From contig JAFGWL010000014.1 of NCBI GenBank assembly GCA_016937175.1, positions 1 to 13,498 on the forward strand: DNA of 13,498 nucleotides, given 5' to 3'. Positions 2,836 to 10,233 of this stretch are shown here, one piece after another. The DNA comes from Candidatus Mcinerneyibacteriota bacterium (GTDB taxonomy: Bacteria; Macinerneyibacteriota; Macinerneyibacteria; Macinerneyibacteriales; DSCS01). Made by a program: the position numbers and the translations under genes. Below the pieces are notes generated by a model. That model saw only the letters and a list, made by a program, of their open reading frames with translations. It did not search any database and was not told the DNA's origin. Position 1 is the first letter of the stretch, and each line of letters begins with the position of its first letter.

Positions 2836-2863
2836 TTGAAATATATAAAAGTGTCCTTATAAT
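2836..2863 (+). promoter_or_regulatory. Sigma-70-type promoter of perR
   Basis: TTGAAA at 2836-2841 and TATAAT at 2858-2863 are separated by 16 bases, so the -10 is exact and the -35 is close to consensus. The local sequence is much more AT-rich than its surroundings. Transcription would begin near 2870, with GAGGAG at 2874-2879 as the ribosome-binding site, leaving a very short leader. Confidence 0.75.
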
Positions 2864-2868
2864 AAGGA
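2854..2868. promoter_or_regulatory. 7-1-7 palindrome on the perR -10 element, probable PerR operator
   Basis: TCCTTAT-A-ATAAGGA is a perfect 15-base inverted repeat with one central base. Fur-family repressors, including Bacillus PerR, bind 7-1-7 sites of this shape. It contains the whole TATAAT box, so a bound dimer would block polymerase. PerR autorepression is the simplest reading. The outer half-site bases differ from the Bacillus TTATAAT half-site. Confidence 0.7.
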
Positions 2869-2886
2869 AACTCGAGGAGTTGACTT

Positions 2887-3288
2887 ATGTTGGATATTAA
2901 AAAAAAGTTTTTAGAGCACGGGATCACTCCCTCCATGCAGCGCCTGCTGATCTATCAGTATATACTCCGGGAGCGCAATCACCCCAGTGTGGATATGATC
3001 TATTCGGCGTTGAAGAAAAAAGCTCCCACACTTTCCAGAACGACAGTCTACAATAATGTCACCCTCTTTGTGGAGAAGGGGCTCCTGTTTCCCATGCTTA
3101 CCGAGACAGCCGAGACCCGTTATGATCTCACAGAACATCCTCATTCTCACTTCATTTGTTCCCAGTGCGGGATGATTTATGATATCCCATCTGTCTCCTG
3201 CGGCCCCGGGCAAATCCCTGAAGGGTTTGTCACTGCTAAGACACAGGTCTATATCCAGGGGACCTGTAAAAATTGCCGGTCAAAATAA
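2887..3288 (+). CDS. perR: Peroxide-responsive Fur-family repressor PerR
   Basis: This 133-residue repressor has an N-terminal winged helix containing SRTTVYNNV and a C-terminal metal-binding and dimer domain. The regulatory-site ligands His32, Asp80, His86, His88 and Asp99 match Bacillus subtilis PerR His37, Asp85, His91, His93 and Asp104 at a constant offset of five. Asp rather than Glu at the last position is typical of PerR rather than Fur. The structural zinc site is Cys91/Cys94 with Cys127/Cys130. In the known family, peroxide oxidises a His ligand of the Fe form and releases DNA. GAGGAG lies seven bases before the ATG. It sits directly upstream of the defence operon it presumably controls, and its own promoter carries a fitting operator. 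Confidence 0.92.
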   Translation: MLDIKKKFLEHGITPSMQRLLIYQYILRERNHPSVDMIYSALKKKAPTLSRTTVYNNVTLFVEKGLLFPMLTETAETRYDLTEHPHSHFICSQCGMIYDIPSVSCGPGQIPEGFVTAKTQVYIQGTCKNCRSK

Positions 3289-3300
3289 AAAAGTTCATAT

Positions 3301-3329
3301 TTGACATATCAGAGCTGCCATGGTAAACT
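3301..3329 (+). promoter_or_regulatory. Promoter of the flavodiiron/rubredoxin/SOR/rubrerythrin operon
   Basis: TTGACA at 3301-3306 is an exact -35. TAAACT at 3324-3329 is a 4/6 -10 at the ideal 17-base spacing. It begins 13 bases after the perR stop, with no terminator between, so the operon can be read both from here and by read-through from perR. The predicted start point near 3336 leaves a leader of about 34 bases. Confidence 0.65.
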
Positions 3330-3342
3330 GTAATAGTTACAA
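3328..3342. promoter_or_regulatory. Per-box-like operator downstream of the operon -10
   Basis: CTGTAAT-A-GTTACAA is an imperfect 7-1-7 inverted repeat, with five of seven pairs symmetric. It agrees with the Bacillus Per box TTATAATnATTATAA at 10 of 14 scored bases by hand count. It overlaps the last bases of the -10 and the predicted transcription start, a normal repressor position. The neighbouring perR gene makes PerR the likely ligand; this is inference. Confidence 0.55.
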
Positions 3343-3369
3343 TGATGATAATAATACAAAAGGAGGAGC

Positions 3370-4530
3370 ATGGAGCCTGTCAGACTAAAGGAAGGGGTTT
3401 ACTGGGTCGGTGGCATCGACTGGAAACTCAGAAATTTCCATGGTTATTCCACAGGCCGGGGATCCACTTACAATGCTTACCTGATCATTGACGAGAAGAT
3501 CACTCTCATCGATACCGTCAAGGAGTACCTTTTTGACGAGATGATGGAGAGGATCAGCAAGGTCGTCGACCCGTCTAAAATCGACATTATCATATCCAAC
3601 CATGTGGAGATGGACCATTCAGGAAGCTTACCCAGGATCATGCAGGTCTGTCCTTCTGCCCGGATCTACGCTTCTCCCAACGGCGTCAGGGGGCTCAAAG
3701 CTCATTACCGTAAGGCCTGGGACTTTGTCGAAGTAAAAGGGGGAGATACCCTCTCGCTGGGGAAACGCTCTCTTCAGTTCCTTCTGACTCCCATGGTCCA
3801 CTGGCCGGATAACATGGTCTCTTTCTGCCCTGAAGAGAAGATCCTCTTCTCCAACGACTCCTTCGGCCAGCATATCGCTTCGTCGGAGCGCTTTGACGAT
3901 GAATATCCTGCGGATATCATTTGGGAAGAAGCGGCCAAGTATTATGCCAACATCGTCTGGCCCTACAGCGCCCAGGTGAGAAAAGAGCTGGAAGCAGCCT
4001 CCGGGCTTGATTTTGAGATGATCGCCCCGAGCCACGGCCTTGTCATACGGTCCCTGGCCGGCCAGATCGTCGGACTTTATCAGAAGTGGGCGAATTTGGA
4101 GACGATAAAAAAAGCAGTGGTCGTCTATGATACCATGTGGAAGTCAACGGAGAAGATGGCCTTATCCATCGCTTCAGCCTTTGAAGCCAAAGGGTATAAG
4201 GTCCGCCTCATGAGCCTGCAGGAGAATCATATCTCCGATATCATGACAGAGCTTTTGGATGCCCGGACTCTCTGTGTGGGGTCGCCCACACTCAACAACA
4301 ATATGCTCCCCACTGTAGCGGCCTTTCTGACCTATTTGAAAGGCCTCTCTTGCGGGGGAAGAGAAGCCCTGGCTTTCGGTTCTTACGGATGGGGCGGACA
4401 GAGCGTGGCTCTTGTGGAAAAGGAGCTGGAAGCAGCAGGTTTTAACCTGATGGAGGGATTCAGGGTGAATTATGTCCCTGATGAAGCCCAGTTGAACCAT
4501 ATCAAAGAGGATTTGGAAAAACGGATCTAA
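3370..4530 (+). CDS. fprA: Flavodiiron protein (rubredoxin:oxygen oxidoreductase)
   Basis: This 386-residue cytoplasmic enzyme reduces O2 to water (some members reduce NO) with electrons from rubredoxin. The N-terminal metallo-beta-lactamase-like domain carries the diiron ligands His78, Glu80, Asp82 and His83 in NHVEMDHSG, His144 in VHWPDN, the bridging Asp163 and His222 in PSHG. From about residue 249 a flavodoxin domain follows, with the FMN phosphate loop at [14 protein letters not shown] and the later motifs VGSPTLNNN and GSYGWGG. No C-terminal rubredoxin or reductase fusion is present, and the separate rubredoxin gene follows after 17 bases. AGGAGG lies just before the ATG. It is the first gene of the PerR-linked operon. 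Confidence 0.95.
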
Positions 4531-4716: not shown

Positions 4717-4734
4717 GCGGGGGGAGGCCCCCGC
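4717..4734 (+). other. Seven-pair GC hairpin between rubredoxin and the erythrin gene
   Basis: GCGGGGG at 4717-4723 pairs with CCCCCGC at 4728-4734 over the loop GAGG. It starts five bases after the rubredoxin stop. The T-rich stretch 4739-4745 follows after a gap, so it could be a partial terminator or an RNA-processing or stability element. The only Shine-Dalgarno-like string ahead of the next gene (GGAGG, 4723-4727) lies in its loop. Confidence 0.5.
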
Positions 4735-4745
4735 ACCCTTATTTT

Positions 4746-5189
4746 ATGAAAATACCCGAAGTGAAAAACAGTGAAGAATTAGTGAGTCTGGCTTGTCTTA
4801 TCGAAGAGAGCGGACGTGAGATGTATCAAGCCCTGGCCGGAAAAACATCGGATAAAAGCCTTTCAGCCCTCTTTCTTTCTCTGGCTGAGGAGGAGGAGAA
4901 ACACAGGGAGATGTTTCTCTCTTTGAAGAGCCGTAAGGCGGAAGGGACTGATACGTCCCTTGAGGAAGGGCCGGACCTTTTCGATACCGGCCGGCTCCTT
5001 ACTGAGATCAGCCATATAGGGACAGCCGAGGATCTTCTCGGTTTCGCCATCCGGCGTGAGCTGGATACCATCCTCTTCTACAAAAGGATGGCCCACACGG
5101 GATTCGGCGACACGGCACTGCTTGAGAAAATGATCAAGATGGAAGAGACTCACTTTTACAGATTACATGAAGTCAAGGAAAAGCTTTAA
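4746..5189 (+). CDS. Small diiron ferritin-like protein (erythrin type, no rubredoxin domain)
   Basis: This is a 147-residue four-helix-bundle protein. A full diiron ligand set can be placed: Glu20 or Glu21 on helix 1, Glu50-x2-His53 in EEEEKHREMF, Glu105 in RRELDTILFY and Glu133-x2-His136 in EETHFYRL. This pattern belongs to the rubrerythrin-type diiron family. A rubredoxin domain is absent, so electrons must come from a partner such as the rubredoxin just upstream, if it is a peroxidase at all. Alternatively it binds or oxidises iron. The linker at 62-85 is acidic and Ser/Thr-rich. The ATG at 4746 lacks a normal ribosome-binding site, and a GC hairpin precedes it. The fold is fairly sure; the activity is inferred. 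Confidence 0.85.
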   Translation: MKIPEVKNSEELVSLACLIEESGREMYQALAGKTSDKSLSALFLSLAEEEEKHREMFLSLKSRKAEGTDTSLEEGPDLFDTGRLLTEISHIGTAEDLLGFAIRRELDTILFYKRMAHTGFGDTALLEKMIKMEETHFYRLHEVKEKL

Positions 5190-5204: not shown

Positions 5205-5585
5205 ATGGCAAAGAAAAGCGAGATCTACAAATGCGAAATCTGCGGGAACATCGTGGAGGTTCTTCACGGCGGAGCCGGAGAACTTGTCTGCTGCGGGCAG
5301 CCCATGACCCGGATGGAAGAACAGACAGCTGACTCTTCTACAGAAAAACATGTCCCTGTCATCGAAAAGATGGGAAACGGAAAAGTCAAAGTCACCGTGG
5401 GCAGTATCCCTCATCCCATGGAGGAGAAACACTTCATCGAATGGATCGAACTGCGTTCCGGTGAGAAGAGCTGCCGCGCCTACCTCGCACCGGGACAGAA
5501 GCCCGAAGCGGTCTTCGAAATGGACGGCGATGAGTTCACAGCCAGGGAATATTGCAACATCCATAAGCTCTGGGCTACAGAATAG
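5205..5585 (+). CDS. dfx: Desulfoferrodoxin (superoxide reductase, two-iron type)
   Basis: This 126-residue protein reduces superoxide to hydrogen peroxide without making O2. The N-terminal desulforedoxin domain holds Center I with Cys10, Cys13, Cys29 and Cys30 (CEIC and VCCGQP). The catalytic Center II is His49 (preceded by Glu47-Lys48), His70, His76, Cys117 and His120, in the order of the Desulfovibrio enzyme with one residue inserted. AAAGGAGG lies before the ATG, 15 bases after the preceding gene. The peroxide product would be handled by rubrerythrin, two genes downstream. This is the 2Fe class rather than neelaredoxin, because the Center I Cys residues are intact. Confidence 0.96.
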
Positions 5586-5593
5586 GAGGGATG

Positions 5594-6079
5594 ATGAAGA
5601 AAAAGATCGAAGACGCTTTGAACGAACAGATCAATAAAGAGTTCTTCTCTGCATACCTCTATCTCTCCATGAGTGCTTACCTGGAAGGGGAGTCCCTTCC
5701 CGGAGCGGCTCGCTGGATGGAGATCCAGGCCAAAGAGGAAGCTGAGCATGCCATGAAGATTTATACCCATATCCATGAGAGGGGCGGGCGGGTCTATCTT
5801 AAATCCCTGGATGGGCCGGAACAGACGTGGAAATCCCCGTTGTCGGCCTTTGAAGATGCCCTGAAACACGAGATCTTCATCACAGAATCCATCCATAACC
5901 TGGTCACTCTGGCCACGGAAGAGAAGGATTATGCCACCCTCAATATGCTGCAATGGTTTGTCTCAGAGCAGGTGGAGGAGGAAGCCAATGCCCGGGAAAA
6001 TGTGGAGATGTTCAAACGCGTGGAAGACCATCCCCAGGGGCTTTTCATGGTAGACCGGGCTCTGGCTCAGCGAGAATAA
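5594..6079 (+). CDS. ftnA: Non-heme bacterial ferritin
   Basis: This 161-residue subunit belongs to the 24-mer iron-storage cage. The ferroxidase residues are Glu16, Glu49, His52, Glu93, Gln126 and Glu129, one position off E. coli FtnA (17, 50, 53, 94, 127, 130). The opening [13 protein letters not shown] and the AEHAMK segment are typical of ferritin. No Met ligand for heme in the bacterioferritin manner was noted. Two ATGs occur in tandem at 5591 and 5594. AGGAGG at 5584-5589 is only one base from the first, so 5594 is favoured; the difference is one residue. It lies eight bases after dfx and limits free iron in the same stress response. Confidence 0.94.
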
Positions 6080-6113: not shown

Positions 6114-6692
6114 ATGGGAAAAAACATTAAAGGGACAAAGACTGAGCAGAATCTTTTAGCATCCTTCGCCGGAGAATCTCAGGCGCGGAGCCGCTACACC
6201 ATGTTTGCCAAGATAGCCAAAAAAGAGGGCTACGAACAGATCGCAGCCATCTTCACCGAGACGGCGGAGAACGAGCTGGAACATGCCAAACGCTTCTTCC
6301 GTTTTCTGGAAGGCGGAATGGCTGAGATCACAGCCACCTTTCCTGCCGGCATCGAAGGGACCACCATGGAAAACCTCAAGGCTGCCGCCGCCGGCGAAAA
6401 CGAGGAACATACCGAGCTCTACCCTGAAGCGGCCATAACCGCCGAAGAAGAGGGATTCCCCGAGGTGGCCGCTCTCTTCAGAAATGTGGCAAAAGTGGAA
6501 AAACATCATGAAGAGCGATATCTGGCTCTTCTTGCACAGCTTAAAGAGGGAACTTTCTTTAAGAAAAAGGAAAAAGTCCAGTGGAAATGCAGGAATTGCG
6601 GCTACATCCATGAAGGGACGGAACCCCCTGAGAAGTGCCCGGCCTGTATCCATCCCAGAGCCTACTTCGAGATTCTCTGCGAGAAGTTCTGA
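6114..6692 (+). CDS. rbr: Rubrerythrin
   Basis: This 192-residue NADH-linked peroxidase of anaerobes reduces H2O2 to water at a diiron site. The N-terminal ferritin-like domain carries Glu21 in [10 protein letters not shown], Glu54-x2-His57, Glu95/Glu98 in [15 protein letters not shown] and Glu129-x2-His132. The C-terminal rubredoxin domain has Cys159, Cys162 (CRNCGY) and Cys175, Cys178 (CPAC), which relays electrons to the diiron site. AAAGGAGG precedes the ATG. It is the last gene of the operon, 34 bases after ferritin, and is followed by a strong terminator. It removes the peroxide that desulfoferrodoxin makes. Confidence 0.97.
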
Positions 6693-6700
6693 GTTGTTCG

Positions 6701-6730
6701 AGCCCGGAAGACTCTTCCGGGCTTTTTTTT
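6701..6730 (+). terminator. Intrinsic terminator of the defence operon
   Basis: AGCCCGGAAG at 6701-6710 pairs perfectly with CTTCCGGGCT at 6714-6723 over the loop ACT. An unbroken run of T at 6723-6730 follows. It lies nine bases after the rbr stop. The T-run overlaps the end of the convergent minus-strand gene, whose stop codon is 6729-6731. Read leftward, the hairpin has no U-tract. Confidence 0.93.
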
Positions 6731-10108: not shown

Positions 10109-10136
10109 TTGACAGAGTGAAACTTTTCAGTATAAT
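10109..10136 (+). promoter_or_regulatory. Exact-consensus sigma-70 promoter of the SPFH operon
   Basis: TTGACA at 10109-10114 and TATAAT at 10131-10136 are both perfect, with a 16-base spacer. The site begins six bases after the kinase stop. Transcription would start near 10143 and give a leader of about 90 bases. This is the strongest-looking promoter in the window. A second TTGACA at 10154-10159 has no -10 partner. Confidence 0.85.
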
Positions 10137-10191: not shown

Positions 10192-10233
10192 AGGATGGAG
10201 CCCTTTGGGGCGCATCAACCGACAGGAGAGATT

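Follow-up and report, generated by a model that had tools for sequence, protein, structure and literature searches.

The locus described here raises the question of whether a perfect palindrome lying over the -10 box of a perR promoter is an operator with a recognition code of its own, or a coincidental feature of an otherwise standard anaerobe PerR locus. The window (the whole stretch of DNA analysed) is a complete contig of 13,498 bases, and its phylum is sparsely sampled; the features of the region are listed in Table 1. The preliminary description placed TTGAAA-16-TATAAT before perR, with the TATAAT inside TCCTTAT-A-ATAAGGA, and both the sequence and the coordinates are confirmed: the two hexamers lie at 2836-2841 and 2858-2863 with 11/12 matches to consensus, and the palindrome at 2854-2868 forms 7/7 pairs and ends 18 bp upstream of the perR ATG at 2887. 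The promoter is of the sigma-70 type and is conserved in the congener, which upholds the earlier claim that perR has a promoter of its own.

Table 1. Features of the perR-fprA region, with positions in the window; G001 is the sole available congener and G002 a genome of the same order.
Feature	Position	Strand	Evidence or remark
perR promoter (TTGAAA, 16-nt spacer, TATAAT)	2836-2863	+	both hexamers and spacing identical in G001
Perfect 7-1-7 palindrome TCCTTATAATAAGGA spanning the perR -10 box; unlikely to be a conserved operator	2854-2868	.	7/7 pairs; 8/15 bases in G001
perR, Fur-family regulator of the PerR type, 133 aa	2887-3288	+	Pfam FUR match; best solved relative B. subtilis PerR
fprA promoter (TTGACA, 17-nt spacer, TAAACT)	3301-3329	+	TTGAC and TAAACT identically placed in G001
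Canonical PerR-type 7-1-7 box CTGTAAT-A-GTTACAA, likely PerR operator	3328-3342	.	12/14 consensus; kept in G001 and G002
Second, overlapping PerR-box consensus match TTACAATGATGATAA	3337-3351	.	12/14; 11/14 in G001
fprA, flavodiiron protein	3370-4530	+	profile searches
Rubrerythrin-like ferritin-fold protein	4746-5189	+	profile search
dfx, desulfoferrodoxin (superoxide reductase)	5205-5585	+	TIGR00320 over cut-off
ftn, ferritin	5591-6079	+	profile search
rbr, rubrerythrin	6114-6692	+	NF045767 over cut-off
Intrinsic terminator-like hairpin after rbr	6700-6724	+	

Because the hexamer TATAAT is itself nearly symmetric, perfect symmetry around a -10 box gives weak grounds for inferring an operator. 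Here TATAAT occupies positions 5-10 of the 15-mer and by itself supplies two of the seven pairs; the chance of the remaining five also matching is P = 0.00125. This is unusual for a single promoter, yet about one such case would be expected over the roughly one thousand promoters of a genome. Three perfect 7-1-7 palindromes are present in the window against about 1.03 expected at its composition, one of which forms the terminator stem at 6700-6724. A role of the palindrome as an RNA element was rejected, since its end roughly coincides with the expected transcription start. The adjoining leader repeat AACTCGAGGAGTT was also rejected as an RNA hairpin; its folding is no better than that of shuffles, and the fold is not the one predicted for the congener. 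An inverted repeat, AACTC-GAG-GAGTT (window 2869-2881), surrounds the perR ribosome-binding site; its bases are largely kept in the congener, but its predicted hairpin likewise does no better than shuffles and differs from the fold predicted for the congener.

The product of the gene at 2887-3288 is PerR-like, an assignment supported by several features of the protein. Its Fur-family fold is recognized by the Pfam FUR profile at 76 bits (cut-off 23.1), and alignment to B. subtilis PerR shows all of the regulatory metal ligands (H32, D80, H86, H88, and D99) and a complete structural Cys4 site (C91, C94, C127, and C130), as the preliminary description had stated for the five metal ligands and the zinc site. 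The B. subtilis equivalents of the five ligands are taken to be H37, D85, H91, H93, and D104, a numbering that agrees with the alignment. The top NCBIfam match is a PerR model at 85.3 bits, for which the cut-off is 180, the PerR models there seeming to be lineage-specific. Helix 4 reads TVYNN, and its first Asn, N56, aligns with the TVYNN of B. subtilis; the helix-4 residue discriminates PerR-box from Fur-box binding, being Asn in PerR and Arg in Fur (PMC8638967, PMC8638851). Peroxide-sensitive, metal-dependent DNA binding would be predicted for the protein from its family.

The comparison set consists of the three available genomes of the phylum, including the sole available congener G001 (contig DSCS01000018.1, locus L031; labelled Bacillota bacterium) and G002 of the same order; a single scan of genome contigs for further congeners returned the same congener and distant relatives, and some assemblies in the comparison are incomplete. 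The PerR of G001 is 70% identical to that of the window, and in its perR leader the hexamers TTGAAA and TATAAT, the 16-nt spacing between them, and the ribosome-binding region are all preserved. Where the palindrome stands, G001 has CACCTATAATGGGAG, with 8/15 bases identical, six of those eight being the -10 box; 5/7 pairs are left, a value reached in 16% of trials by random flanks around TATAAT. Arm pairs 1:15 and 4:12 are changed on both sides with pairing retained, which would also be the outcome of a degenerate symmetric site. The palindrome had been put forward as an operator, a claim that its own author tied to conservation upstream of perR orthologues; in the one congener, which holds the sole close perR orthologue, the arms have diverged and the 15-mer is not conserved, so that on this single orthologue the claim is not supported.

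A different picture is seen at the adjoining fprA promoter. The PerR-box consensus scored was TT(G/A)TAATNATTA(C/T)AA over 14 positions, and the only places in the window that score at least 11/14 are at this promoter (3328-3342 and 3337-3351). Some 40 bp downstream of perR, the box at 3328-3342 overlies the -10/+1 region of fprA; its G001 version is CTGTAATCGTTACAA, 14/15 identical with only the central base differing, and the G002 fprA promoter carries a perfect TTGTAATGATTACAA, the sole exact match in that genome. The box thus has a canonical core, overlaps the promoter, and is conserved at orthologous promoters, a pattern that would be expected of a 7-1-7 operator in use. Genome-wide totals of the canonical box are not clearly above those of a reversed-pattern control, and the argument therefore draws on the position of the box at fprA, which is conserved, and not on its numbers. 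In a strand-aware scan the box was mostly absent from the leaders of distant fprA genes, and conservation of the box is accordingly claimed within this order only.

A second Fur-family gene of the genus serves as an internal control. Its protein has TVYRAL in helix 4, with Arg where PerR has Asn, and its leader holds TGCAAAT-N-ATTTGCG just before the start (L081:1850-1864; own genome contig C6, near 202.6-203.0 kb), of which 14/15 bases are kept in the congener and only the centre differs; the sequence is perhaps a Zur-type autoregulatory site. This box shows what a kept operator looks like, the two Fur-type boxes standing at 14/15 against 8/15 for the perR palindrome.

Copies of the palindrome elsewhere bear on two further readings. 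Besides 2854-2868, exact copies number none in the own genome or in G001 and one in G002; the G002 copy and the three near matches whose context was read all lie inside reading frames. Hits for the pattern and for its reversed control number 8 vs 8 in the own genome, 21 vs 12 in G001, and 20 vs 41 in G002. A reading in which some other regulator represses perR by binding the palindrome is very unlikely: the palindrome is symmetric, is sited where a repressor would act, and keeps partial symmetry in the congener (5/7 pairs), but a second exact copy is missing from the own genome, the near matches read in context lie within reading frames, and the one further member of the Fur family found in this genome is paired with another conserved box, GCAAAT-N-ATTTGC.

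The preliminary description proposed that TCCTTAT-N-ATAAGGA is the lineage's own PerR operator and represents a new recognition code. Its perfect symmetry on the -10 box and its 7-1-7 shape, as in the Fur family, are consistent with this, and lineage-variable PerR boxes have been proposed before, one of them overlapping the -10 element of the perR operon in Geobacter (PMC545781); however, the palindrome is not conserved in the congener, it has no other exact copy in its own genome, and the TTAT of its inner half-site is not the TAAT core preserved at fprA. The canonical TGTAAT-N-(G/A)TTACA box is kept at adjoining fprA in all three genomes, and the PerR of the window has the helix-4 Asn; a lineage-specific code is thus very unlikely. 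Were it true, the divergent code would be a natural test of change in Fur-family half-site specificity. It is similarly improbable that PerR has a dual specificity, for the canonical TGTAAT box of fprA as well as for a divergent TCCTTAT-N-ATAAGGA fused to its own -10 box, in which case the doubly changed arm pairs of the congener would be drift under kept symmetry.

Alternatively, the palindrome may be a genuine but weak autoregulatory PerR site that limits perR expression, TTATAAT (the -10 box with the preceding T) being a perfect PerR half-site. TTATAATAAGGAAAC scores 10/14 against the canonical consensus, canonical boxes are present in the perR leader of several distant relatives, and the PerR of C. 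difficile is described as autoregulated (PMC11841134). However, 10/14 is the best score in the perR leader and is equalled by 17% of shuffles (P = 0.17), so that the box at 2854-2868 matches the canonical consensus no better than chance; the best match in the G001 perR leader, also 10/14, is at another place, and 46% of shuffles score as high. Weak autoregulation is on these grounds unlikely, and the earlier statement that autorepression can be read directly from the sequence was too strong. In G002 perR is located elsewhere, and its leader has a 12/14 canonical box (P = 0.07) that is not significant alone; in more distant perR genes a canonical box is frequent in the leader, so autoregulation appears to be common in the family.

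The explanation considered most probable (about 0.68) is a standard anaerobe PerR locus in which PerR acts at the fprA box and the perR palindrome is coincidental; because the palindrome is not kept in the congener while the fprA box is, the locus is read as that of an ordinary peroxide regulator and not as evidence of a new recognition code. In the proposed mechanism perR would be transcribed from an ordinary sigma-70-type promoter of its own; PerR loaded with Fe or Mn would occupy 3328-3342, cover the -10/+1 region of fprA, and block RNA polymerase, and peroxide would oxidise PerR, leading to release of fprA. The rubrerythrin-like, dfx, ferritin, and rubrerythrin genes (to 6692) would probably be released together with fprA; their transcription from the fprA promoter is only possible, because the 215-bp gap after fprA holds a terminator-like hairpin (4717-4734). 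The symmetry of the perR palindrome most likely arose by chance around TATAAT, a hexamer already close to symmetric, rather than marking a lineage-specific operator. In this scheme the promoters, the boxes and their conservation, the residues of the protein, and the order of the genes are observed, whereas binding and repression by PerR, the sensing of peroxide, and co-transcription of the cluster are predicted.

Among known systems, B. subtilis PerR (box TTATAATNATTATAA) shares the five metal ligands, the Cys4 zinc site, the helix-4 Asn, and a 7-1-7 box with a TAAT half-site core, found here at the fprA promoter. Unlike in B. subtilis, the fprA box belongs to the TTGTAAT type, no significant canonical box is present in the perR leader, and the predicted targets are anaerobe oxygen-defence genes, the cluster holding neither catalase nor ahpC. 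The adjacency of PerR to rubrerythrin and desulfoferrodoxin genes resembles the Clostridium and Clostridioides PerR regulons (PMC11841134, PMC11980386); in C. acetobutylicum the PerR targets include flavodiiron proteins (PMC11841134, PMC11980386), and PerR control of such oxygen-defence genes is established in Clostridium (PMC11841134). In C. difficile, however, the perR gene described as autoregulated lies inside the operon, whereas perR and the cluster have separate promoters here. Among the PerR sites predicted for delta-proteobacteria (PMC545781), the D. vulgaris perR site CAGTAATtGTTACTG has the core GTAAT-N-GTTAC in common with the fprA box. At Geobacter perR-rbr-roo (PMC545781) a palindrome lies over the -10 element, the layout that the preliminary description proposed; two species share the Geobacter palindrome, whereas the one described here is not conserved in the congener and is unrelated in sequence. 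Lineage-variable PerR boxes were already proposed in 2004 (PMC545781), together with the Geobacter -10 palindrome, and even a new code would therefore add one more instance to an idea already described. With a standard PerR locus as the preferred reading, a sparsely sampled phylum would join the lineages that have a canonical PerR-type box on anaerobe oxygen-defence genes.

Two further sites were noted. A perfect-consensus promoter, TTGACA-16-TATAAT, is located at 10109-10136 of the window, upstream of an ORF at 10195. Each congeneric genome has a sole exact TTGTAATNATTACAA site (L057:1501-1515, which is C56:11109-11123 of the own genome, and L056:1501-1515, which is C39:5665-5679 of the congener), 49-56 bp upstream of the same gene, which encodes a C25-family (gingipain-like) peptidase with a propeptide; this gene is a possible further PerR target.
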